Shown here piece by piece: positions 63 through 10,605 of a stretch of DNA of 10,605 nt. The position numbers and the translations under genes were made by a program. The notes below the pieces were generated by a model. That model did not search any database. It saw only the letters and a program-made list of their open reading frames with translations, and was not told the DNA's origin. The DNA lies in NCBI GenBank assembly GCA_013821865.1, contig PNJM01000066.1, positions 1-10,605 on the forward strand, given 5' to 3'. This DNA comes from Rhodocyclaceae bacterium. GTDB taxonomy: Bacteria > Pseudomonadota > Gammaproteobacteria > Burkholderiales > Rhodocyclaceae. Position 1 is the stretch's first letter. Each line of letters opens with the position of its first letter.

Positions 63-539
63 ATGGAACGCTTCACCATCTCGCTCGACGAGAAGCTGGC
101 GAAGGAATTCGACCGCCTGATCCAGGCCAGGGGCTACGACAACCGTTCCGAGGCGGTGCGCGACATCCTGCGGGAGAATCTGGAGCAGAGCCGCCTGGCG
201 CGAGACGAGGCGCCCTACTGCATCGCCGCACTCTCCTACATCTACGACCACCACGAGCGCGAGCTGGCTGAGCGGCTGACGGCGCGCCAGCACGATCACC
301 ACGATCTGTGCGTGTCCACCCTGCACGCCCACCTCGACCACGACAATTGCATGGAGACGGTGATCCTGCGCGGGCCGACCGGCGCGGTGCGCGAGTTCGC
401 CAATGCCATGATGGCCGAGCGCGGCGTGCGCCACGGCGCCCTCAACATCGTGCCGGCGGACATGAACGCCGGGCGCCAGCATCATCACCATCACGGCCCG
501 GATCACCCCTATCATGTGCACAGCCGGCCCAAGAGCTAA
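63..539 (+). CDS. nikR: Nickel-responsive transcriptional regulator NikR
   Basis: NikR is a tetrameric DNA-binding repressor that senses intracellular Ni(II) and shuts down nickel uptake genes. Residues 1-45 form the ribbon-helix-helix DNA-binding domain (begins MERFTISLDE). Residues 55-135 form the ACT-like metal-binding domain. The square-planar Ni ligands known from E. coli NikR (His76, His87, His89, Cys95) are all present at the same spacing as H77, H88, H90 and C96, within the motifs QHDHHD and LHAHLDHDNC. The protein is 158 aa, against about 133 aa in E. coli. The extra length is a His-rich tail (five consecutive His at 140-144, then HPYHVH). The ATG at 63 is chosen because the domain begins there and a good ribosome-binding site precedes it. 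A kinase gene follows after 24 bp and a nickel permease lies further downstream, consistent with local control of nickel uptake. Confidence 0.95.
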   Translation: MERFTISLDEKLAKEFDRLIQARGYDNRSEAVRDILRENLEQSRLARDEAPYCIAALSYIYDHHERELAERLTARQHDHHDLCVSTLHAHLDHDNCMETVILRGPTGAVREFANAMMAERGVRHGALNIVPADMNAGRQHHHHHGPDHPYHVHSRPKS

Positions 540-563: not shown

Positions 564-1964
564 ATGCCCAAGCGAAGCGAGGAAAAACGCAAGATCGAGG
601 CGCAGGTTTTCCTGCCACATACCGCCCGCCCGCCGGAAGGCGTCGGCGAGGACGTGTGGATCGACGTCATCCGCAAGATGGACGAGGTCTACAGCGACCT
701 GCTGCAGTACGAGGTGGCGCTGGAGGAGAAGAACGCCGCGCTGGAGGAGACGCAGAAGTTCATCTTCAGCGTGCTCACCTCGATGTCGGACATCCTCGTC
801 GTGTGCGACCGCCACGGCAACATCCAGGAAGTGAACCAGGCGCTGGCCCAGCTCACCGGCAAAACCGAGGCGCAGTTGCGCGGCACGCCGCTCATCGATC
901 TTTTCGCCGACGAGGCCTCGCGCGCGCAGGCCGACCGCTTCATGCGCGACCTGCACATGGAGCGCATCCACGACTGCGAGTTGCAGTTCAAGTCGCGCGA
1001 AGGCGCCGCCATGCCGGTGGCGGTGAACTGCACGCCGCGCCTGTCGCCGGTGGGCAAGTTCGTCGGCATGGTGGTCACGGGTCGCCCGGTGGGCGACCTG
1101 CGCCGCGCCTACGATGCCCTGCGCCAGGCTCACGAGGATCTGAAGCTGGCCCAGCAGCAACTCATCCATTCCGAGAAGATGGCCTCCCTCGGCCGCCTGG
1201 TGGCGGGCGTGGCGCACGAACTCAACAACCCGATCAGCTTCGTGCTGGGCAATGTCTATGCCCTGCAGCGCTACAGCCAGCGCATGCGCGAGTACCTCGG
1301 GGCGATCCATGCCGGCAAGCCGCCGGAGGAGATTGCCGAGCTGCGCAGGAGCCTGCGCATCGACCGCCTGATCGAGGACATGCAGCCGCTCATCGACGGC
1401 ACCATCGAGGGCGCCGAGCGCACGCGCGACATCGTCGCCGGGCTCAAGCGCTTTTCCGCCGCCGACCGCGGCGAGGAAGCGGTGTTCGACCTCGCCGAAG
1501 TGCTGGAACGCTCGGTGCACTGGGTGGTCAAGGCGTCCGGCTCGAAAATCCAGGTCAGCCTCGATGTGCCGAAAGACATTCCCGTCGCCGGTTCGGCCGG
1601 CCAGATGCAACAGGTGCTGGTGAATCTCGTGCAGAACGCCATCGACAGCACCGACCAGCAGCCGGATGCGCGGCTGGAGATCAACGGCGACCTGCGCAAC
1701 CGCAGCGTGGTGCTCACCTTCCGCGACAACGGGCCGGGCTTCCGGGAAGAAAACCTCGGTCATGCCTTCGACCCGTTCTTCACCACCAAGCCGGTGGGCA
1801 AGGGCACCGGACTGGGGCTGTCGATCAGCTACGGCATCGTCGAGCGCCACCGCGGCCAGCTCAAGGCCGCCAACCATCCCGAGGGTGGGGCAGTGATGAC
1901 CCTCACGCTGCCCCTCGCCGAGCGTCCGGCCAGGGGTTATGGAGATTCCACAAAAACTTCATAA
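564..1964 (+). CDS. hoxJ: PAS-domain sensor histidine kinase, HoxJ-like
   Basis: This is a cytoplasmic two-component sensor kinase of 466 aa with no membrane segment. A coiled coil (about 44-66) leads into a PAS domain (about 67-175). The HisKA dimerisation domain follows, with H-box SEKMASLGRLVAGVAHELNNP and phospho-acceptor H218, and then the HATPase_c domain with N-box (N354, N358), G1 DNGPG (388-392), F-box FDPFFTTKP and G2 GKGTGLGLS (412-420). All catalytic boxes are intact. The soluble PAS-HisKA-HATPase layout, the NNPISF variant of the H-box and the position next to a HoxN-type nickel permease resemble HoxJ. In Ralstonia, HoxJ works with the hydrogen sensor HoxBC and the regulator HoxA to control hydrogenase genes. 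Neither HoxBC nor HoxA is in this window, so the assignment is an inference. The start ATG overlaps the stop of a five-codon reading frame (550-564, TGATG), with no clear Shine-Dalgarno. Confidence 0.85.
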   Translation: MPKRSEEKRKIEAQVFLPHTARPPEGVGEDVWIDVIRKMDEVYSDLLQYEVALEEKNAALEETQKFIFSVLTSMSDILVVCDRHGNIQEVNQALAQLTGKTEAQLRGTPLIDLFADEASRAQADRFMRDLHMERIHDCELQFKSREGAAMPVAVNCTPRLSPVGKFVGMVVTGRPVGDLRRAYDALRQAHEDLKLAQQQLIHSEKMASLGRLVAGVAHELNNPISFVLGNVYALQRYSQRMREYLGAIHAGKPPEEIAELRRSLRIDRLIEDMQPLIDGTIEGAERTRDIVAGLKRFSAADRGEEAVFDLAEVLERSVHWVVKASGSKIQVSLDVPKDIPVAGSAGQMQQVLVNLVQNAIDSTDQQPDARLEINGDLRNRSVVLTFRDNGPGFREENLGHAFDPFFTTKPVGKGTGLGLSISYGIVERHRGQLKAANHPEGGAVMTLTLPLAERPARGYGDSTKTS

Positions 1965-2095: not shown

Positions 2096-2923
2096 ATGGA
2101 AACCCTTCCGAACGACTGGCTGGCGCTGATGTTCCTGGTGTTTATCCTCGGCGTGAAGCACGGGCTGGACGCCGACCATCTCGCCACCATCGACGGCCTG
2201 ACCCGCTTCAACGCTTGCGGCAATCCGCAGCTGGCGCGCTGGTGCGGCTTTCTCTTCTCGCTGGGCCATGGCGCCCTGGTGATCGTTATCGCCCTGGCGG
2301 TGGGGGCGGCCAGCGAACGCTGGACGGTGCCGGTGTGGATGGAAGACCTTGGCGCCTGGATTTCCATTACCTTCCTGGCGCTGCTCGGCGCCATGAATCT
2401 TGTCGCGGTGCTCGCCGCGCAGCCGGACCAGGTGGTGCAGCCGGTCGGCCTGAAGGGGCGCTTCCTCGGCCGCCTGCAGCGCACCGGCAACCCGCTGCTG
2501 ATCGCCGCCGTCGGCGCGCTGTTCGCGCTGTCCTTCGACACCATGAGCCAGGCGGCATTGTTCGCGCTGACCGGCACCCAGTTCGGCGGCGTGGCGCATT
2601 CGCTCACGCTCGGCCTGCTCTTCATGCTCGGCATGATGCTGATGGACGGCATCAACGGCCTGTGGATCTCGCGCCTGATCCGCCGCGCCGACCGCATCGC
2701 CTGCGTCGCCTCGCGCGTCATGGGGCTGGCCGTGGGCGGACTGTCCCTGCTGGTGGCCGGCTTCGGCATCGCGAAGTATGCGTCGCCGGAAGTCAGCGCC
2801 TGGTCCGACGGCAAGGAACTCGCCTTCGGCCTTTCCTTCATCCTCGTTGTCGCTTTGAGTTTCGTCTTCGCGCTGCGGCTCGCCCGCGGCGGCGAACCGG
2901 CCAAGGCCTTGTCTTCCTCCTGA
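2096..2923 (+). CDS. hoxN: Nickel/cobalt permease of the NiCoT family (HoxN-like)
   Basis: This inner-membrane secondary transporter imports Ni(II) (or Co(II)) for metalloenzymes such as [NiFe]-hydrogenase or urease. The family signature H-x4-DH in transmembrane helix 2 is present at H22 to H28 (KHGLDADHLATID). The other conserved NiCoT segments follow in order: LFSLGHG (53-59), LFALSFDT (142-149) and GMMLMDGINGLW (179-190). Several hydrophobic helices are visible between residues 8 and 262. At 275 aa it is shorter than Ralstonia HoxN (about 350 aa), but all signature motifs are present and the reading frame is intact. The ATG at 2096 follows GAGGG with 7 nt spacing. The neighbours nikR upstream and a TonB receptor/tonB pair downstream support a nickel role. 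Substrate choice between Ni and Co is inferred from nikR, not from this sequence. Confidence 0.9.
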   Translation: METLPNDWLALMFLVFILGVKHGLDADHLATIDGLTRFNACGNPQLARWCGFLFSLGHGALVIVIALAVGAASERWTVPVWMEDLGAWISITFLALLGAMNLVAVLAAQPDQVVQPVGLKGRFLGRLQRTGNPLLIAAVGALFALSFDTMSQAALFALTGTQFGGVAHSLTLGLLFMLGMMLMDGINGLWISRLIRRADRIACVASRVMGLAVGGLSLLVAGFGIAKYASPEVSAWSDGKELAFGLSFILVVALSFVFALRLARGGEPAKALSSS

Positions 2924-2957: not shown

Positions 2958-3914
2958 ATGATGAAAACTAAAAACATCTTAACGATTTTTGCCTTCCTCC
3001 CGCTTGCCGCCGCCGGTGGCGGCATTCCCACGCTTGATGTGGTCGAGGTGGTGGCCGGTCAGGACGGGCTGATCGGCAGCGCCGACTCGGCGACACAGGA
3101 CACCGTGTCGGCGCGCCAGTTGGAGACGCAGCCCTTGCTGCGCCCGGGCGAAGTGCTGGAGACGATGCCGGGTGTCATCATCACGCAGCACTCCGGCGAC
3201 GGGAAGGCCAACTAGTACTTCCTGCGCGGCCTCAATCTCGACCACAGCAACGACGCGCGCGGCGCGACTATCACGGTCGACCCGGCGACACTCCTGCCGG
3301 CGCAGAAAGTGGATCCGCTGGTGCGCGCGAAAGGCGCCATCGGCCTGCGCAGCGCCATCGTGCCGAAGCTGCAGACGACGCTGGCGCTGTGGCGCCTCGA
3401 CGTCGCTTCCGAACTGCTGTTCGTCGGCGACGCCGGCACGACCGAGCCGAGCCGGCCGAACCGGCGCTCCGGACTGGAGTGGGCCAACTGGTGGACACCG
3501 CGCGACTGGCTGACGATCGACGCCGATTTCGCCTGGTCGCGCGCCCGCTTCAACAACGACGATCCTGCCGGCAATCGCATCCCCGGCGCCATCGAGAAGA
3601 CCGTTTCGGTCGGTGTCAGCGTAGACAACCTGAACCGCTGGTTCGGCGGCCTGCGCCTGCGCCGTTTCGGCGCTCGTCCGCTGATCGAGGACAATTCCGT
3701 GCACTCGCCGCCTTCGACGCTGGTCAATCTGCGCGTCGGCTACCGGTTCGACAGACAGCTGAAGCTGACCCTCGATGTGCTCAATCTGTTCGACCGCAAG
3801 GTGAGCGATATCGACTACTGGTACGAGTCGCGCGTCACGCCCGACTCGGCTGCCGCCTTCGGCCTCCCCGCCGAACCGCGTACGCTGCGGCTGGCGTTGC
3901 AGGCGGGCTTCTGA
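2958..3914 (+). pseudogene. TonB-dependent outer-membrane receptor, internally deleted and with a nonsense codon
   Basis: This is the remains of a TonB-dependent receptor of about 700-800 aa, now about 318 codons. The N-terminal part has a short signal-like segment (1-20) and the start of the plug (RPGEVLETMPGVIITQHSG, then GKAN). An in-frame TAG at 3213-3215 follows, where relatives have a Gln codon before YFLRG. The frame then continues with YFLRGLNLDH and jumps straight to late-barrel sequence (SNDARGATITVDP). The junction is near 3243-3248, so the rest of the plug and much of the barrel are missing. The C-terminal barrel (about 3252-3914) is in the same frame and ends normally in ...LQAGF with terminal Phe. 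Both halves share one frame, so deletion and stop are separate lesions. It sits 34 bp after the nickel permease and 1 bp before tonB, suggesting a former nickel-complex receptor. The ligand is inferred. Confidence 0.88.
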
Positions 3915-3915
3915 C

Positions 3916-4219
3916 ATGGAGCGCACGCTGTGCACGGCACTTGCCGGTTCGCTGGCGCTGCACGGCGTGGCCTTGCTGCTGGCTCCCCACAGTGCGGAAC
4001 GGAATGTGCCGCTCGTGTGGGAATTGAGGGTTTTTCTGGTGCCGGCCGTGAGTGCCCCGATCGCGGCGGTGCCGTCGGGCGGCGCGCCCGCCAGCCGCAT
4101 GCTCGGCACAAAAAAGAACGCAGCTGCCGTCACGCCTGTGGAGACGATCGCCGGCGCGGCGAGGCGCGAAGGCGGTCGCCGCGTGGGTCGAGGTGCCGGT
4201 GCGCTTCCGGATCGAGTAG
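3916..4219 (+). pseudogene. tonB: TonB energy transducer, internally deleted and frameshifted
   Basis: TonB spans the periplasm and passes proton-motive energy from ExbBD to outer-membrane receptors. The ATG at 3916 begins 1 nt after the receptor stop (TGACATG). The N-terminal membrane anchor is visible at residues 4-24 (LCTALAGSLALHGVALLLAP), followed by a short linker. The frame runs to about 4170, after which the typical TonB C-terminal strand appears in the +1-shifted frame (KAVAAWVEVPVRFRIE, stop TAG 4217-4219). Nearly all of the Pro-rich linker and the C-terminal domain, including the segment that pairs with the TonB box, is gone. About 100 codons remain where more than 200 are expected. 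If translated from the ATG, the product runs out of frame into the opposite-strand gene to about 4368. It could not energise a receptor. The identification rests on the two preserved ends and on position after a TonB receptor. Confidence 0.75.
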
Positions 4220-4222
4220 CGC

Positions 4223-4570
4223 TTACCGCGCGCTGCGGCAGCTGGCCGTCACCTTGTTGCCGGAGAGTTGAATGCTCGGCGTCATGTCTCCACACAGCTT
4301 GCCCAGATCCGACACGGCGGCCTCCATCGCGGCTCGCCAGCTGCCCGGGCGGGTCGCCTCGTAGTTGACCATCGTGCGGCTTTCGCCCGCGGTAGCGTGG
4401 ATGCGGAACCACGTGACCTGGCTTCCCGCGCAATCCAGGCGGCGGACGTTGGACAATTCGGTGAGTTTCAACTGGCCGCCCGAAGCGGCGCAGAGCGCTT
4501 CGAGGGCCGTCTCGTCGGCGTGGGCGGGGAGGGCGCAGAAAACGGCGACGGCAATGAGATAACGCTTCAT
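4223..4570 (-). CDS. Small secreted Cys-containing protein of unknown function
   Basis: The protein is 115 aa and I do not recognise its family. Residues 1-18 form a clear Sec signal peptide (MKRYLIAVAVFCALPAHA), with likely cleavage after AHA and a mature chain of about 97 residues. The mature part has four cysteines (C27, C47, C93, C111), which could form two periplasmic disulfides. There is no membrane segment after the signal and no lipobox. The gene is convergent with the tonB pseudogene, with only 3 bp between stops, and lies 14 bp downstream of the GNAT remnant. No strong ribosome-binding site is visible; a possible -10 lies at 4603-4608. Signal peptide, even Cys spacing and normal codon bias argue for a real gene. 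Confidence 0.75.
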   Translation of the reverse strand: MKRYLIAVAVFCALPAHADETALEALCAASGGQLKLTELSNVRRLDCAGSQVTWFRIHATAGESRTMVNYEATRPGSWRAAMEAAVSDLGKLCGDMTPSIQLSGNKVTASCRSAR

Positions 4571-4584
4571 GGGGAACGGGCAGC

Positions 4585-4870
4585 CTATCTGCTATGCAAC
4601 CCAGTATAGCGTGGCCCGTAGCCGATCAGGTAATCGTGTCCGTTCCGCAGCATGTAACGGGCCAGGCCGGACCAGAGCAGCGCGATGGCGGTGCCGGTGC
4701 GGTAATCCGAATCGATGCAGGAGCGCCCCACCTCGACCATGCGTTCGCGCAGATGCCGCAGGCGGACCAGGTCGAATTCGTTCTCCGAGTAGTAGCCGAC
4801 CCACCTCGGGCGGCAGGATGCGGTAGGTGCCGACGATGCGGCCGTTGTTCTCGTCGTGGAGCCAATCGCT
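4585..4870 (-). pseudogene. Remnant of an OlsB-like GNAT N-acyltransferase
   Basis: This is a fragment of about 95 codons from the hemolysin-like/OlsB family, which transfers an acyl chain to an amino acid (first step of ornithine lipid synthesis in OlsB). It begins directly after the glycosyltransferase stop with no start codon. The first frame reads DENNGRIVGTYRILPPE. A frameshift near 4801-4807 follows, and a second frame reads GYYSENEFDL, then EVGRSCIDSDYRTGTAIALL, then ARYMLRNGHDYLIG, with a stop at 4585-4587. The Y-SENEFDL and GRSC-YRTG segments are hallmark motifs of this acyltransferase family, which is normally about 250 aa or longer. Both ends are missing and the middle is shifted, so it is non-functional. 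Position beside a glycolipid-type glycosyltransferase and a PlcP-like phosphoesterase suggests a lost role in phosphorus-free lipid synthesis. Some relatives have other acyl acceptors. Confidence 0.75.
4603..4608 (-). promoter_or_regulatory. Possible -10 box for the small secreted protein gene
   Basis: TATACT on the minus strand matches TATAAT in five of six bases and lies 32 bp before the ATG at 4570. No convincing -35 element is found at 16-18 bp upstream. It lies just where the GNAT remnant loses similarity to its family, so the promoter may belong to sequence brought next to the remnant by the deletion. Confidence 0.25.
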
Positions 4871-6073
4871 CTATCCCGGCTTGCGTTCGTGGGCAGCCAC
4901 GACCTGCGCCAGGGTCACGGCGAAATCGCGGACAACGTGCTTCCAGTCGAGGCGCTCGATTGATTCGCGGGCCTTCAGGCGCATGGCGGCGCGGCGCACC
5001 GGGTCCTCGACGAGGCGGCATGCCGCTTCGACAAACATGCCAGCGTCGCCGCAAGATGCCACTCGTCCGTTCTCGCCGTCGAGGATCAGTTGCGCCGCGG
5101 CGGCATAGTCGTAGGCGACGACAGCCAGACCGCTGGCCATGGCTTCAGCGGTGACGTTGCCGAAGGTCTCGGTCAGGCTCGGGAACAGGAAGATGTCGGC
5201 GGAGGCGTAGTGTGCCGCGAGGTCATCGCCCGTGCGCATGCCGGCGAAGACATGCTGCGGGTGCTTTGCCTCCAGCGCCGCGCGGGCAGGGCCGTCGCCG
5301 ACGAGAACGAGCCGGGCCCGCGGTGCGATTGCAAGCATGGCTTCGAAGGCGCGAAGCACGAGCGGCAGGTTTTTCTCGGGCGCCAGGCGGCCGACATGGA
5401 TTGCCACCGGGTCGCCGTCTTCGGCCCCCCACTGCGCGCGCAGCGCCGGCGAGCGGCGCCGCGGATTGAACAGCCGGATGTCCACGCCACGCGCAACGAC
5501 ATGCACCGCCTTGTAGCCCTCTCGCCGGAGATCTTCCCGCAGCGCCAGCGTCGGCACCAGCGTTCCGTCCGTGCGGTTGTGAAAGCGGCGCAAGTAGATT
5601 GCGATTGGCTGATGCAGCCAGCCGACGCCATAGTGTTGGCTGTAATGGTGAAAGTTCGTATGGAAGTCGCTGGTGACGGGCAGCCCGAGCTTGCGGGCGG
5701 CGGACAGGGCGGACCAGCCGAGCGGGCCCTCGGTGACGATGTGCACGATGTCAGGGCGCCGGGCGGACCAGAGGCGGCTCAATGTCTGTTTCGCCGGCAG
5801 CCCGAGCTTCAGGCCCGGGTAGCCGGGAATCGGCATGCCGCGCGAGAGCATTTCCTCGGGGCCGTCCTGTACTCCCGGCCGATCCGCCTCGTGCTGGCGT
5901 GGCCGTATCAGCTGCACCTGGTGCCCCAGGGCGAGCAGGCCTTCGACCATGCGGCCGACGGTCATGGCAACGCCATTGATTTCGGGAGGATAGGTTTCGG
6001 TGACCACCGCGACCCGCATCGTCGCGGTGCCGGCGGAGAACTGTCGGAGCGGGAGCGGGCGGCTGGAGTTCAT
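4871..6073 (-). CDS. GT4-family glycosyltransferase, probably making a membrane glycolipid
   Basis: This is an intact GT-B retaining glycosyltransferase of 400 aa. The N-terminal acceptor domain starts at TYPPEINGVAMT (28-39) and contains SDFHTNFHHYSQHYG (135-149). The donor-binding domain has HVGRLAPEKNL (226-236; the Arg and Lys contact the sugar nucleotide phosphates in this family) and the E-x7-E motif from E302 to E310 (ETFGNVTAEAMASG). The overall type matches MgtA/PimB/SqdX-like enzymes, which glycosylate diacylglycerol or related lipids. Flanking remnants of a PlcP-like phosphoesterase and an OlsB-like acyltransferase suggest an Agt-like enzyme that converts PlcP-released diacylglycerol into glycolipid; this is inference. 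Start choice is uncertain: the core begins at M19 (ATG at 6019) and neither ATG has a strong ribosome-binding site, so the longer form is given. No lesion is visible, unlike both neighbours. Confidence 0.9.
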   Translation of the reverse strand: MNSSRPLPLRQFSAGTATMRVAVVTETYPPEINGVAMTVGRMVEGLLALGHQVQLIRPRQHEADRPGVQDGPEEMLSRGMPIPGYPGLKLGLPAKQTLSRLWSARRPDIVHIVTEGPLGWSALSAARKLGLPVTSDFHTNFHHYSQHYGVGWLHQPIAIYLRRFHNRTDGTLVPTLALREDLRREGYKAVHVVARGVDIRLFNPRRRSPALRAQWGAEDGDPVAIHVGRLAPEKNLPLVLRAFEAMLAIAPRARLVLVGDGPARAALEAKHPQHVFAGMRTGDDLAAHYASADIFLFPSLTETFGNVTAEAMASGLAVVAYDYAAAAQLILDGENGRVASCGDAGMFVEAACRLVEDPVRRAAMRLKARESIERLDWKHVVRDFAVTLAQVVAAHERKPG

Positions 6074-6145
6074 CTCAAGAATGCCTGTGAGTGCGACGGG
6101 ATGATTTAATGAATGTCGGCCCAGGCAAAGACAGGTCGGCTGTCG

Positions 6146-6630
6146 TCATCGCGATGCATGGTTTGCCTGTACAGGGAGATCGCCGGCCGCCGGGCCGGGG
6201 GCCGGAAGGTGGTGGATGATTTCGAGGCGGCCGTCGAGGTGCTCCACCACGGCCGTGCAGCTGTCCACCCAGTCGCCGCAGTTGACATAGTCGATGCCAT
6301 CGATCTGCTTGATGACGGCGCAATGGATGTGGCCGCAGATCACGCCGTCCACTCCCCTGTCGCGAGCCGCGCGGGCGACAGACTCCTCGAAGTCGAAAAT
6401 GAAGCTGACCGCGTGCTTCACCTTGCGCTTCGCATATCCCGCCAGCGACCAATATCCGGGAACGCCGAGACTCCGGCGAATCCACGAAAGCCACGAGTTG
6501 ATCCTGACCAAGAGGTTGTACGACACGTCGCCCAGAATGGCGACCCAGCGGTGGTAGCGCGTGACCTGGTCGAATTCGTCCCCGTGCAAAAGCAGGTATC
6601 GGAAAGAAATATCGCCCTTACCTGCCGCAT
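6146..6630 (-). pseudogene. PlcP/LpxH-like calcineurin-type metallophosphoesterase, internally deleted and frameshifted
   Basis: This is the remains of a metallophosphoesterase of the PlcP/UDP-diacylglucosamine-diphosphatase-like group (usually 270-300 aa). The N-terminus reads MRQVRAIFLSD, which in relatives runs into DLHLG. Instead the sequence breaks near 6598-6603, changes frame, and resumes at YLLLHGDEFD. Roughly 110 residues are gone, including the metal-binding DxH, GDxxD and GNHD motifs. The C-terminal half is continuous (6601 to the stop at 6146) and keeps YWSLAGYAKRKVK, CGHIH and YVNCGDWV. With half the metal ligands gone it cannot be active. The ATG at 6630 is taken as the original start; an in-frame ATG at 6726 would place the start almost at the predicted transcription start. 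The gene lies 72 bp upstream of the glycosyltransferase on the same strand, the arrangement expected of a plcP-agt pair. Confidence 0.82.
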
Positions 6631-6734
6631 GGGTGCGGAGTTTTCATGGGCGGGCCGGATGGCCTGCGTCCGCTTTGCGGCTGCGGTGTGGGCGTCAGCA
6701 AGGATTTCCGGATTGATCGAGTCCAATGGCGCTC

Positions 6735-6768
6735 AATCTAGCCGTGCAAGATGACAGCTGTGTGACGT
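6735..6768 (-). promoter_or_regulatory. Candidate Pho box with -10 element
   Basis: On the minus strand, ACGTCAC-ACAG-CTGTCAT (6768 to 6751) fits the PhoB-binding pattern of two 7-bp repeats with 11-bp period. The second repeat matches CTGTCAT perfectly and the first keeps GTCAC. Ten bases downstream is TAGATT (6740 to 6735), four of six matches to TATAAT, at the spacing seen in PhoB-activated promoters. It points into the metallophosphoesterase pseudogene and the glycosyltransferase. The context of phospholipid-sparing enzymes supports it. It was found by eye, not by matrix scoring. Confidence 0.5.
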
Positions 6769-6799
6769 TCCCGGATCCGGACTGCGCCGGGAGGGTTCA

Positions 6800-6815
6800 G
6801 CCCGCCATTGCGGGC
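6800..6815. terminator. Stem-loop downstream of the MFS gene
   Basis: GCCCGC-CATT-GCGGGC is a perfect 6-bp stem with a 4-base loop, 20 bp beyond the stop of the minus-strand MFS transporter gene. A T-run is absent, so it is at best a weak or Rho-assisted terminator. A separate 10-bp palindrome CCGGATCCGG lies at 6771-6780. Confidence 0.35.
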
Positions 6816-6834
6816 CGGAGGGATGCGGGCGGCT

Positions 6835-8013
6835 CTACGCCGTTTGACGGGTGCGCCGCCGCAGCCATAGCACGGCAGTCGACAGCGTGGTTATCCCGAG
6901 GAAGGGCAGGGCGAGCTGGTTCAGCGCCGCCCAGCCGCTGCCGGTGACCACCATGCCGGAAGCGAGCGAGGAGCCGGCCATGGCGAGGAATATCAGGAAG
7001 TCGTTGATGCCCTGCGTCTTGGCGCGCTCGGCCGGCGCACAGACTTCGGTGAGCAGGGTGGTGCCGCCGATATAGAGGAAGTTCCAGCCCACGCCGAGCA
7101 GCACCAGCGCCCACCAGAAATGCATCAGCGAAACGCCGGACATGGCGATGAAGACGCAGGCGAACATCAGGGCGGCGCCGGCCAGCAGGACGTTCTGCAC
7201 GCCGAAGCGCTTGATGAGCGAGCCGGTGAAGAAGCTGGGGGCGAACATGCCGATGACGTGCCACTCCAGCACGAAGGCGGCATCGCTGAAGGAATGCCGG
7301 CAGATGTCCATCGCCAGCGGGGTGGCGCTCATCAGGAGATTCATCACTCCGTAACCGACTGCGGCGGCCAGCATTGCGACGATGAATGCGGGCTGCAGCA
7401 TGATGGCGGAGAGCGGCCGCCCGGATTCGCGCTTTTCCTCCGCAGAGAGCGGCGGAATGTCGAGCTGCCGCACGATGGCCAGCGAGGCCAGCGCGAACAC
7501 CAGCAGCAGCGCGTACGAGGCCATGAACTGCGGCTGCAACAGGTCGCGCGTCAGCTTGCTCGTCTCCGGCCCGAGCACGCCGCCGATGATGCCGCCGGCC
7601 AGCGTGAGGGAGATGGCCCTGCTCTTGAAGTCCGCGCCGGCCATGTCGGCGGCGGCGAAGCGGTAATACTGGCCGAAGGCGTTGTAGATGCCGGAGAAGA
7701 AAGTGCCGAGGCAGAGCAGCCAGAAGCTCTGCATGAAAATCGCCAGCACGCCGGTCGCCGCGCCGACCATGCCGAGCGCCGAGCCCAGCGTGAAGCCGGC
7801 GCGGCGGCCGTAATGCTTCATGAAGAACGATGCCGGCAGCGTGGACAGTGCCGAGCCGATGACATAGGCCACGATCGGCACGGTGGCCATGCGGCGGTCC
7901 GGCGCCAGCGCCAGCCCGGCCAGGCCGTTGATGGCCATCAGGGTGACGCCGTTGGTAAGCAGGAGGGCCTGGCAGGCGGCGAGAAGGGCGACGTTGCGCT
8001 TGGTCTTGTCCAC
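6835..8013 (-). CDS. MFS transporter, substrate unknown
   Basis: This is a 392-aa inner-membrane protein of the major facilitator superfamily with about 12 predicted helices and a central hydrophilic loop (about 187-203, rich in Glu, Lys and Arg). The loop between helices 2 and 3 carries the motif-A remnant MKHYGRRAG (65-73), where the usual Asp is absent. A second segment, GPETSKLTRDLL (148-159), follows helix 5. The frame is intact. The start is a GTG at 8013, placed 4 bp after the stop of the DUF2189 gene, so the two are very likely cotranscribed and coupled. No substrate can be assigned from sequence. It is clearly a different MFS subfamily from the broken transporter at 8927-9278. Confidence 0.88.
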   Translation of the reverse strand: MDKTKRNVALLAACQALLLTNGVTLMAINGLAGLALAPDRRMATVPIVAYVIGSALSTLPASFFMKHYGRRAGFTLGSALGMVGAATGVLAIFMQSFWLLCLGTFFSGIYNAFGQYYRFAAADMAGADFKSRAISLTLAGGIIGGVLGPETSKLTRDLLQPQFMASYALLLVFALASLAIVRQLDIPPLSAEEKRESGRPLSAIMLQPAFIVAMLAAAVGYGVMNLLMSATPLAMDICRHSFSDAAFVLEWHVIGMFAPSFFTGSLIKRFGVQNVLLAGAALMFACVFIAMSGVSLMHFWWALVLLGVGWNFLYIGGTTLLTEVCAPAERAKTQGINDFLIFLAMAGSSLASGMVVTGSGWAALNQLALPFLGITTLSTAVLWLRRRTRQTA

Positions 8014-8017
8014 CCGC

Positions 8018-8791
8018 TCAGGCTATCACATCGCGGTAGGCATGCCATGTGGCATGGCCGATCAGCGGCATGGTGACGAGCAGCCCGAGGAAGAGAGTGG
8101 ACAGCCCAACGGCCGTGAGCAGGACGATCAGGGCCGCCCACACCGCCATGGCCGGGAGGTTTTTCGCCAGGGCCATGACGCTGGCGATCATGGCGGTGAT
8201 CGTGTCCTGGTTGCGGTCGAGCATGAGCGGGATGGAGATCACGCTGAGGGCGAACACGATGGCGGCGAAAATGAAGCCGACGGCGAAATACACGGCGAGG
8301 AAATTCAGGTTGTCAATCGACAGCACCTGCTGAAAAAAGCCGGCCAGGGTCGGCATCTCGCTCGTGTAGAAGAGGGCGAAGATGACCAGCGAGGCGCGCG
8401 CCCAGACGAGGAAAACGACGATGAGGATGAGCGAGAAAAGGCCGATGCCGGCGGCGTTCGGGCGCCACGCGGCGAGCGTGGGGGCCAGCGTGCAGCCCTC
8501 GCCACGCTCGCGCCGGCGGCTGATCTCGTAGAGTCCGATGGCGAGAAAGGGGCCGAGCAGCAGGAAGCCGGAGGTGAGCGCCGAGAGGTACTCGTAGGCA
8601 TTGGCGAAGACGAACTTGATGAGGAAGCCCATGCCGGCGAAACAGACGCCGTAGAAAAGGCTGGGGCCGGGGCGGCTTCTGAGATCCTGCCAGCCGCGCT
8701 TCAGCCAGTCGAACGGCGCGGCGGGGGAAATGTTGCGCACTTGCGGAAACGCGGGCAGCGCGACGCCCTGATCCTGCCGGGTCATTGTCAT
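8018..8791 (-). CDS. DUF2189 family integral membrane protein
   Basis: This is a 257-aa membrane protein of the DUF2189 (COG5473) type, whose function is unknown. The N-terminal cytoplasmic stretch carries the family pattern of PFDWLKRGWQDLRSRPGPSLFYG (26-48, given as family context) followed by about five or six hydrophobic segments near 43-60, 70-88, 115-140, 165-190 and 213-242. The motif GPFLAIGLYEISRRRERGE (80-98) after helix 2 is also typical. A strong AAAGGAG ribosome-binding site on the minus strand (8799-8805) sits 7 nt before the ATG at 8791 and fixes the start. The stop is 4 bp before the GTG of the MFS transporter gene, so the two form an operon. Nothing suggests damage. Confidence 0.88.
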   Translation of the reverse strand: MTMTRQDQGVALPAFPQVRNISPAAPFDWLKRGWQDLRSRPGPSLFYGVCFAGMGFLIKFVFANAYEYLSALTSGFLLLGPFLAIGLYEISRRRERGEGCTLAPTLAAWRPNAAGIGLFSLILIVVFLVWARASLVIFALFYTSEMPTLAGFFQQVLSIDNLNFLAVYFAVGFIFAAIVFALSVISIPLMLDRNQDTITAMIASVMALAKNLPAMAVWAALIVLLTAVGLSTLFLGLLVTMPLIGHATWHAYRDVIA

Positions 8792-8814
8792 CGTCTCTCT
8801 CCTTTGTGGGTTGC

Positions 8815-8830
8815 GCCGGCTTGTGCCGGC
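8815..8830. repeat. Stem-loop in the DUF2189 leader
   Basis: GCCGGC-TTGT-GCCGGC forms a 6-bp GC-only stem with a tetraloop; each arm is itself a palindrome. It lies 24-39 bp upstream of the DUF2189 start, just before its ribosome-binding site. It could be a leader hairpin or a weak terminator. No T-run follows on either strand. Confidence 0.35.
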
Positions 8831-8899
8831 TGCATTTCGCCGCCGTGGTTCTGCGCCGCAACTGGTTGCTTTAATTCTAAACGAAAATGTCGGGACAAT

Positions 8900-8939
8900 C
8901 CCCTCTCCCCGCTTGCGGGAAGAGGGTCAGGGAGAGGGG
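8900..8939. repeat. REP-like palindromic intergenic repeat (CCCCTCTCCC type)
   Basis: The outer arms CCCCTCTCCC (8900-8909) and GGGAGAGGGG (8930-8939) are a perfect 10-bp inverted repeat. Nested inside is CCCGC-TT-GCGGG (8908-8919) followed by GAAGAGGGTCA. Elements of this form, with a CCCTCTCCC arm and a CGCTTGCGGG centre, are known as dispersed intergenic repeats in many proteobacterial genomes. Only one copy is in the window. It overlaps the final codons of the MFS pseudogene, whose stop lies at 8927-8929. Confidence 0.7.
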
Positions 8940-9278
8940 TCGGTTTTCGCGGGGGCGGGCCCGGTGTGCATCCTGATCCGGCCGGCGAAGGCGACCGCCA
9001 CGTAGCCCACCCAGTCGTAGCAGCACGGCCAGCATGGCGGAGAGGGGATGGGCGCACTCAGTTTCGCTGACGATGGCCGAGGCGAGGTGGCCGCGCAGCG
9101 CCGGCAGCAGCTTCCATCCCAGCAGCAGAAAGCCGACGGCCAGCAGCGCAATGAAGATGAAGGGGAAGCGCCAGCCGAACTGGATGCCGGCCAGCGTCAG
9201 CAGCAGCGCGCGCTCGCGCAGCGGATCGAGCGGCAGTTGGGCCGGTGAAGCGGCCTGGGATTCGGAATTTTCTGTCAA
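8927..9278 (-). pseudogene. Second MFS transporter, collapsed by internal deletions
   Basis: This is the remains of a DHA1-type MFS transporter (normally about 400 aa), now about 117 codons. The N-terminus ends in RALLLTLAGIQF (to residue 34), which in relatives leads into helix 1. It then jumps at 9177/9176 to GWRFPFIFIALLAVGFLLLGW, a mid-protein helix followed by LPALRGHL. A second break with a frameshift lies near 9013-9024 (MLAVL to YDWVGYVAVAF). A probable third near 8985 leads into the typical tail AGRIRMHTGPAPA, with its stop inside the REP-like repeat. Only about three of twelve helices survive, so no transport is possible. The apparent start is a TTG at 9278, 36 bp after the ABC permease stop. 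Unshifted translation would instead run to 8877 through the repeat. Confidence 0.72.
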
Positions 9279-9313
9279 GGCGTGGCCGGGAAGGGTACGT
9301 CGAAAGGGCCGGG

Positions 9314-10513
9314 CTATTCGCTGCGCAGGGCTTCCAGCGGATCGAGCTGCGCCGCGTGCCGCGCCGGCAGCACGCCGGCGGCGAGCCCCACCGCGATGGC
9401 TACGCCTTCGGCGACGACGGCATACAGCCAGGGCGTGTGCACCGGCAGTTCCGGCAGGGCGACTTGCAGCACCAGCGCGATGCCCCAGCCGAGCAGCAGT
9501 CCCGCGGCGCCACCGATGGCCGCCAGCAGCGCCGCCTCGCCGAGGAACAGCAGCATGATGCGCCGCTGCGTCGCGCCGATGGCGCGCAGCAGGCCGATTT
9601 CCGAGGTGCGTTCGGCCACGGCGATGGTGAGGATGGTGAGGATGCCGACGCCGCCCACCAGCAGCGAGATGGCGCCGATGGCTGCCACGGCGAAGGTGAT
9701 GGCGTTGAGCACGGTGCCGAATACCTCCAGCATCTTCTGCTGCGGCGTGATGGTGAAGTCCTCCGCGCCGTGGCGCGAGATCAGGATGCGCCTGATGCCT
9801 TCCTCCACCTCGGCCAGCGGCGCCGTCGGTTCGTAGGTGATGTGGATTTCCTGCAGGCTCTCGCGGTTGAACATCTCCAGCGCGCGCCCCACCGGGATGT
9901 ACACCGTGTCGTCGAGGTCGAAGCCCAACACCTGACCCTTGGACTCCATGACGCCGACGATGCGGTAGCGCTCGCCGCCGACGCGGATGCGGGCGCCGAG
10001 CGGGTTCTCGCCGCCGAACAGCTCGCGCGCCACTTTCGAGCCGAGCACGACGAAGGCGCGCGGCGTGTGCGGGTCGTCCGGCGGAAGGAACTCGCCGATG
10101 GCCACCCGCATCGACAGCGCGCGGGCGAAGTCCGGCCCGGTGCCGTAGAGCGTGACGCGGCGGCTCTTGCCGTCATGCGCGACCTCGCCGTTGCCCTGCA
10201 CCAGCGGATCGCTCAGCTGCACGTAGGGCGCCTTGCGCAGCGCGATGGCGTCGTCGACGGTGAGCGGGCGCACGGTGTTCACGGCCCCCAGCGAGGCGCC
10301 GTGGGTCTGGATGCGCCCAGGCGCCACGCCGATGATGTTGGTGCCGAACTGGGTGAACTCGGCGATGACGAAGCGGTGCAGCCCCTCGCCGATCGAGGTG
10401 AGCAGGATTACCGCGGCGATGCCGACGGCGATGCCCAGCGCCGTCAGCACGGTGCGCAGCCGGTGCGCCTTGAGCGAGGCCAGGGTGAAGGCGATGAAGT
10501 CGGCGGTGCTCAT
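9314..10513 (-). CDS. MacB/FtsX-type ABC transporter permease
   Basis: This is a 399-aa inner-membrane permease of the MacB type, with one N-terminal helix (about 22-42, ending in TSIGEG), a large periplasmic MacB_PCD domain (about 45-265) and three C-terminal helices of the FtsX domain. Between helices 2 and 3 is the characteristic coupling segment AVAERTSEIGLLRAIGA. The C-terminus has the usual PARHAAQLDPLEALR ending. Such permeases pair with a separate ATPase and often a periplasmic adaptor for lipoprotein, peptide or drug efflux. No ATPase domain is fused here, so the partner should lie upstream, beyond the right edge. The ATG at 10513 is chosen because a GGAG lies 7-10 bases upstream. 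A GTG at 10558 opens the same frame but adds 15 low-complexity residues. The gene is intact. Confidence 0.9.
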   Translation of the reverse strand: MSTADFIAFTLASLKAHRLRTVLTALGIAVGIAAVILLTSIGEGLHRFVIAEFTQFGTNIIGVAPGRIQTHGASLGAVNTVRPLTVDDAIALRKAPYVQLSDPLVQGNGEVAHDGKSRRVTLYGTGPDFARALSMRVAIGEFLPPDDPHTPRAFVVLGSKVARELFGGENPLGARIRVGGERYRIVGVMESKGQVLGFDLDDTVYIPVGRALEMFNRESLQEIHITYEPTAPLAEVEEGIRRILISRHGAEDFTITPQQKMLEVFGTVLNAITFAVAAIGAISLLVGGVGILTILTIAVAERTSEIGLLRAIGATQRRIMLLFLGEAALLAAIGGAAGLLLGWGIALVLQVALPELPVHTPWLYAVVAEGVAIAVGLAAGVLPARHAAQLDPLEALRSE

Positions 10514-10605
10514 GTCGGCTCCGCCGGGCCGCCCCAAGGAGCCGGCGGCCTTGCACACGGAAGCCGCTTAAGCGGCTGAACCTTTGTCACTCCCTGCCAT
10601 GGGAA
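10510..10605 (-). other. Open frame at the right edge, possibly the end of a partner gene
   Basis: On the minus strand one frame is open from the window edge and ends in TGA at 10510-10512, overlapping the permease ATG as ATGA. Its 31 residues are Pro- and Arg-rich with no recognisable motif. A second frame (ending TAA at 10567-10569, tail GSDKGSAA) is an equally possible end of the upstream gene. An ABC ATPase is expected here, but these few codons do not confirm it. Confidence 0.25.
10562..10577. repeat. Perfect 16-bp palindrome upstream of the ABC permease
   Basis: AGCCGC-TTAA-GCGGCT is a perfect palindrome that can form a 6-bp stem with a TTAA loop. It lies 49 bp before the permease start and includes the TAA of one possible upstream reading frame. 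There is no T-run, so it may be an operator or an mRNA hairpin between genes. Confidence 0.45.

Follow-up and report, generated by a model that had tools for sequence, protein, structure and literature searches.

Five genes in a 10,605-bp stretch of DNA from a Rhodocyclaceae bacterium have lost much of their sequence, and we conclude with good confidence that these dispensable accessory genes have become true pseudogenes, worn down by successive and independent deletions. The window (this whole stretch, which is contig 66 of an assembly that is 81.7% complete and totals 2.76 Mb across 548 contigs) contains remnants of a TonB-dependent receptor gene, tonB, a GNAT-like gene, a gene for a PlcP-like phosphoesterase, and a second MFS transporter gene, here called MFS2. 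An earlier note on this DNA had described five broken genes; comparison with intact relatives confirmed the lesions and showed its junction coordinates to be correct to within approximately 30-45 nt. Its statement that four of the genes kept both ends held for the receptor, PlcP and MFS2; the N-terminus of tonB is just weakly recognisable, and MFS2 is in three pieces rather than two. The reading frames of the remnants are disrupted by stops, frameshifts or large losses.

We mapped the lesions by placing the reading frames of relatives on the window by translated search and then aligning at the DNA level with long gaps allowed. The receptor was also inspected at each residue, and the other remnants were examined in every frame. 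Below, G000 is the genome of the window, G001-G013 are genomes of relatives, L0xx and L1xx are loci of relatives, and P000x are protein clusters.

The receptor gene has lost its middle. Residues 4-105 or 30-112 of intact homologues of 697-700 aa align at 2958-3254 or 3006-3254 and include an in-frame TAG, and residues 466-700 (or to 697) align at 3243-3911 with the frame unchanged. The missing segment is 1,071-1,092 bp and in frame with four references. At the DNA level, the junction lies between 3241 and 3242 and slides to between 3245 and 3246 over CCAC, a repeat found with three of the four references (TCAC with the fourth); a protein-level breakpoint scan with five references gave an interval from 3242/3243 to 3245/3246. 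The remnant violates 6 of the 46 sites at which at least 92% of 120 sequences agree (median 1), which ranks it 2 of 120, a rank that shifts with the cut-off. The part at 3830-3911 does not have the histidines of a pre-C-terminal stretch that at least 92% of 120 homologues conserve.

The adjacent tonB gene has lost most of its middle as well. The N-terminus, from 3916, is weakly similar to its homologue, and a clear C-terminus of 21 codons, ARRGAKAVAAWVEVPVRFRIE, ends at a stop at 4217-4219 in another frame. All of the evidence comes from one reference (L113) with a weak DNA alignment, which puts a rough junction at approximately 4124-4150. This gene was not caught by our gene filter, which uses GC content by codon position, and a search of the protein collection gave no match to tonB at an E value of 0.001.

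MFS2 has been interrupted three times. With three of four references, its pieces are separated by losses of 423 bp (in frame) near 9179, 491 bp (frameshifting) near 9020, and approximately 21 bp near 8988, the last at a place that varies by reference. L106 aligned poorly, with different gaps. A breakpoint scan put the first junction between 9176/9177 and 9179/9180 (six of eight references usable), and the repeat there is TTCG with L107 and 1-2 nt with L109 and L103. At the second junction the repeat is GC with three of four references, and at the 21-bp loss the shared bases number 0, 0 and 3, depending on the reference.

The PlcP gene begins with an ATG at 6630 and 11-12 codons and then continues, in a different frame, with residues 112-247 at 6601-6197. 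The missing segment is 304 bp and frameshifting with all three references, with 0 bp shared at the junction. The GNAT remnant, as the earlier note had said, has lost both ends: residues ~79-161 of 263 remain, with an internal loss of 11-12 nt, placed at 4800-4808 depending on the reference and with 0 bp shared.

The broken genes have intact homologues in relatives, in syntenic positions for the receptor and MFS2 and, through L113 only, for tonB. MFS2 is intact (~407 aa, no stops) in six of the ten genus genomes searched, and G011 and G013 carry a whole copy too; PlcP is intact in two of ten; and the receptor is intact in none of 15 genus genomes and in two of 19 others, some of the genomes searched being incomplete. 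Because of this patchy distribution, the genes look dispensable. No second copy of MFS2, the receptor or PlcP, the three genes to which this search was limited, was found in G000 at its 81.7% completeness.

A composite of L119, L113, L103, L107 and L025 suggests the order nikR, kinase, nicO, receptor, tonB, small gene, MFS, DUF2189, MFS2, MacB; no one genome carries the whole order. In Sulfurisoma (L025), MacB, MFS, the small gene, NicO and NikR are clustered, and the receptor, MFS2 and tonB were not found at our search thresholds. Two gaps in L025 searched for relics of the receptor, tonB and the kinase gave low-complexity-like tonB matches only. The GNAT-glycosyltransferase-PlcP block is not syntenic: among the gene-order loci compared, it lies between the small gene and MFS in the window only. 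It sits elsewhere in relatives, and the small gene directly adjoins MFS in three of them (Table 1). In L114, an extra glycosyltransferase-like frame lies between the glycosyltransferase and PlcP genes; it is absent from the block in the window (4620-6640).

Two relatives carry independent lesions of the same kind in this operon. In G010, MFS2 stands in its original operon position as an open frame of 35 codons (L104, approximately 8716-8822, minus strand) made of the start, residues ~42-55 and the end; the start was assigned by homology and the frame is open upstream. The losses are 93 bp (seven of eight references) and 1,023 bp (eight of eight), and the junctions differ from those in the window. 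Alignment scores were 29-53 by reference, and that of the control reference was 39 versus at most 9 in 60 shuffles. Junction sequence of 7, 6 and 5 bp was shared with three of the eight references and 0-1 bp with the other five; at the 1,023-bp loss it was 0-1 bp. In G013, the MFS gene next to MFS2 has a 266-bp frameshifting hole with the repeat GCCG with two of three references and 0 with the third. The small gene of G004 is a remnant in which the end alone is kept, and we excluded it from the tally of genes with both ends kept.

A repetitive extragenic palindrome (REP)-like sequence, CCCTCTCCC...GGGAGAGG, lies beside the MFS2 remnants of the window and G010 (L104:8673) and the small-gene remnant of G004 (other listed site, L109:852). 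Four copies occur in 561,712 nt of the genome's own contigs; the loci of relatives, 405,263 nt in all, contain 24. We set it aside as a cause of the deletions: the same operon in L106 holds several copies and is free of such lesions.

The junctions do not point to one special process. Of the eight large junctions, counted over the window and the two relatives, five have 2-7 bp in common with one reference or more, the figure varying by reference. Such repeats are not general: PlcP and GNAT have 0, the 1,023-bp loss in G010 has 0-1, and tonB is unreliable. The suggestion of short-homology deletion is supported, depending on the reference, for the receptor and for some MFS2, G013 and G010 junctions. 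The eight large deletions split evenly, with the frame preserved in four (receptor, MFS2 423 bp, and the 93 and 1,023 bp of G010) and broken in four (tonB, PlcP, MFS2 491 bp, and the 266 bp of G013); the probability of at least four of eight in frame, at one in three, is 0.26. Because junction sharing varies by reference, is 0-1 bp for PlcP and the 1,023-bp loss in G010, and the in-frame count is compatible with chance, a special process shared by the lesions is probably not involved.

We believe that the genes decayed through deletions of tens to approximately 1,100 bp, together with a nonsense change and frameshifts, in three settings: the nickel-linked receptor and tonB block, the small gene-MFS-DUF2189-MFS2-MacB operon, and the displaced GNAT-glycosyltransferase-PlcP block. 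Several related genomes have lost, or carry broken copies of, members of these groups. Some deletions may have arisen by replication slippage or other illegitimate recombination at short direct repeats (2-7 bp), and the losses would have been neutral and, presumably, sequential. That both ends are kept is largely an effect of ascertainment and does not call for a special mechanism: both ends would survive any deletion that is smaller than the gene, deletions reaching a needed neighbour would be purged by selection, and whole-gene deletions, such as that of DUF2189, which had no match in G002 and G013, would leave no trace in a single sequence.

Two of the broken frames recur in other contigs. 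The frame that joins the MFS2 pieces across both main junctions forms a cluster (P0001) of two member sequences on 10 contigs, and the receptor remnant frame (P0003) has four members on 11 contigs. The longest contig of each is 13,135 bp, which exceeds the 10,605 bp of the window contig. A third cluster, P0002, whose longest contig is 22,674 bp, begins with the same 34 residues as the MFS2 remnant and does not have the first gap; it diverges from intact homologues after approximately residue 80.

The most serious alternative is that the assembly or its file dropped pieces of the contig, through closed scaffold gaps, removed blocks of 30 or 60 bases, or merged strains. Several observations weigh toward it and against true decay. 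Of 41 G000 contigs, 33 are sized in exact multiples of 30, versus 1 of 27 contigs of relatives. The end of GNAT between 4620 and 4621 (placed by eye) falls exactly at a multiple of 60, as does the small GNAT loss between 4800 and 4801 with two of four references; the PlcP, receptor and first MFS2 junctions, near 6600, 3240 and 9180, are within a few bases of one; and the rough interval for tonB contains 4140. P0002 has a version of MFS2 that does not have the first gap. The lesions were read from assembled contigs alone; the contigs with P0001 and P0003 may share one sample, and members within each cluster may differ. The receptor's conserved-site rank is only 6 at a cut-off of 85% and 4 at 97% (of 120), and a tonB match in L025 (32% identity, E of 1e-8) was set aside as low-complexity-like.

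The positions at multiples of 60 were, however, spotted post hoc and carry no formal probability. The best intervals for the receptor and first MFS2 junctions exclude the exact multiple, and the MFS2 junctions near 9020 and 8988 are far from one, so that the dropped-line idea in its exact form, with 60-base blocks, is disfavoured, although 4620/4621 and 4800/4801 still fit. A test of GC phase by position modulo 60 in 20 contigs found nothing; this test is insensitive. The note had warned that assembly collapse could look the same. Such a collapse needs a repeat of at least k-mer length at both ends, and the window junctions share 0-4 bp, as judged from relatives, too little for k-mer collapse, which is disfavoured. 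The MFS2 and receptor frames are found on 10 and 11 contigs, P0002 departs from intact homologues elsewhere than at the gap, and lesions of the same kind occur in G010 (none of five contigs sized in multiples of 30) and G013 (none of one). None of 23 genes in four other G000 contigs has kept ends and a missing middle. We consider an artefact unlikely, and rate it no lower because of the odd contig sizes, which look like a signature of assembly or trimming.

A different possibility is that selection keeps the ends: expression of the downstream gene would suffer if the start, stop and ribosome-binding regions were lost, and the broken genes would become in-frame spacers. MFS2 lies on the same strand as its neighbours, between MacB and DUF2189, the 423-bp and receptor deletions in the window are in frame, and the 35-codon MFS2 of G010 retains its presumed start and its end. 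However, the in-frame share is compatible with chance, GNAT lost both ends, the small gene of G004 lost all but its end, and DUF2189 had no match in G002 or G013. We therefore regard this explanation as improbable, and give even less credence to the proposal that the genus preferentially hollows operon-interior genes, with start and stop regions kept for the expression of neighbours and in-frame relics such as the G010 frame persisting as translated spacers or new small proteins. Ordinary pseudogene erosion is most likely, ahead of both a novel process and an error of assembly.

Within our sample, decay of this kind is local: none of the 23 genes scored elsewhere had such a lesion. In the window, 11 genes were scored with the GC-by-codon-position filter: four were intact, one was at an edge, and six were flagged, four for real lesions and two (MFS and DUF2189) for over-long reference starts. 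In the other contigs, C60, C65, C64 and C2 (L124, of which the initial 20 kb was used and the initial 12 kb was compared with references), a small sample, 16 of the 23 were intact, one was at an edge, and six were flagged, on inspection apparently most of them for early start choices or antisense frames; one covers only 44% of its reference. A frame-switch model was uninformative, probably through antisense frames in its training set, and the gene filter derived from it retained hardly any genes. The earlier idea of a shrinking genome was not borne out: G000, 2.76 Mb at 81.7% completeness, is within the 2.4-3.4 Mb of seven genus genomes that are at least 90% complete.

Erosion of bacterial pseudogenes under a deletional bias was reportedly described by Mira, Ochman and Moran in 2001. 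In the excerpts of Kuo and Ochman 2010 (PMC2916853) available to us, deletion-driven decay is general in bacteria, and the window resembles the erosion described there, in which unneeded genes are inactivated and removed mostly by deletions and neighbours stay intact. It differs from the Salmonella set in those excerpts, of which only a small fraction lost more than 20%, in that single genes of the window lost half or more of their length in large internal deletions. Judging from the part of PMC3411829 available to us, spontaneous deletions in Salmonella likewise have short sequences in common at same-orientation junctions separated by at most 5 kb, unlike here in the extent of sharing: a cut-off of at least 8 bp was deduced there for true deletions, and we found 0-7 bp, estimated from relatives and not from a parent sequence. 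This is most likely real but ordinary pseudogene erosion of a known type. The loci capture a betaproteobacterial operon in the course of losing genes, seen across several genomes, three of which have deletions of their own, and indicate that relatives can help to tell decay from assembly error without reads, in an assembly with odd contig sizes.

The other genes of the window are intact (Table 1). The small secreted protein, glycosyltransferase, MFS and DUF2189 genes, named as intact in the earlier note, are open reading frames, with Pfam support for the last two. The nearest named records of the MFS gene are from Rhodocyclales-type betaproteobacteria, e.g., Sulfuritalea and Sulfurisoma. We take the final open reading frame to encode a MacB/FtsX-like ABC permease. 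Neighbours and domain names suggest a nickel link of the receptor block; a likely consequence of the decay is that TonB-dependent uptake is lost at this locus and the inner-membrane NicO transporter and NikR stay.

Table 1. Features of the window and the basis of each assignment.
Feature	Coordinates	Strand	Basis
nikR, nickel-responsive regulator, intact	63..539	+	Pfam NikR_C 110 bits, RHH_1 42 bits
PAS sensor histidine kinase, intact	564..1964	+	Pfam HATPase_c, HisKA, PAS; in L119 flanked by nikR and nicO
NicO-type nickel transporter, intact	2096..2923	+	Pfam NicO 59 bits; immediately upstream of receptor in L113, L119
TonB-dependent receptor remnant, N-terminal part, TAG 3213-3215	2958..3241	+	60-66% identity to N-terminus of intact receptors
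TonB-dependent receptor remnant, C-terminal part	3242..3914	+	57-60% identity to residues 466-end in L113, L120
tonB remnant	3916..4219	+	window frames versus L113 tonB frame; weak alignment
Small secreted protein gene, intact open reading frame	4223..4570	-	57-61% identity in L103, L104, L107, there adjoining MFS
GNAT-like remnant, both ends lost	4621..4860	-	75-82% DNA identity, 4 references
Glycosyltransferase, intact open reading frame, 400 aa	4871..6073	-	56-62% identity to relatives
PlcP-like phosphoesterase remnant	6146..6630	-	intact in G001, G008
MFS transporter, intact	6835..8013	-	Pfam MFS_1 68 bits; 64-75% identity in nearest relatives
DUF2189 membrane protein, intact	8018..8791	-	Pfam DUF2189 134 bits
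REP-like palindrome	8901..8937		pattern match; stretch 8886-8950 folds at -25.4 kcal/mol, z -2.1
Second MFS (MFS2) remnant, three pieces	8960..9278	-	long-gap DNA alignment to intact relatives
Presumed MacB/FtsX-like ABC permease gene, intact open reading frame	9314..10558	-	open reading frame; best copy 80-86% identity in L103-L109, L111, L112

Additional frames are present near DUF2189 in two relatives. In G001 (L107, approximately 8350-9430), a frame that we take from the appearance of its sequence to be ArsR-rhodanese-like and a second small frame lie between DUF2189 and MFS, and similar ArsR-rhodanese-like and small frames are at the expected place of DUF2189 in G002 (L108, approximately 6850-7970).

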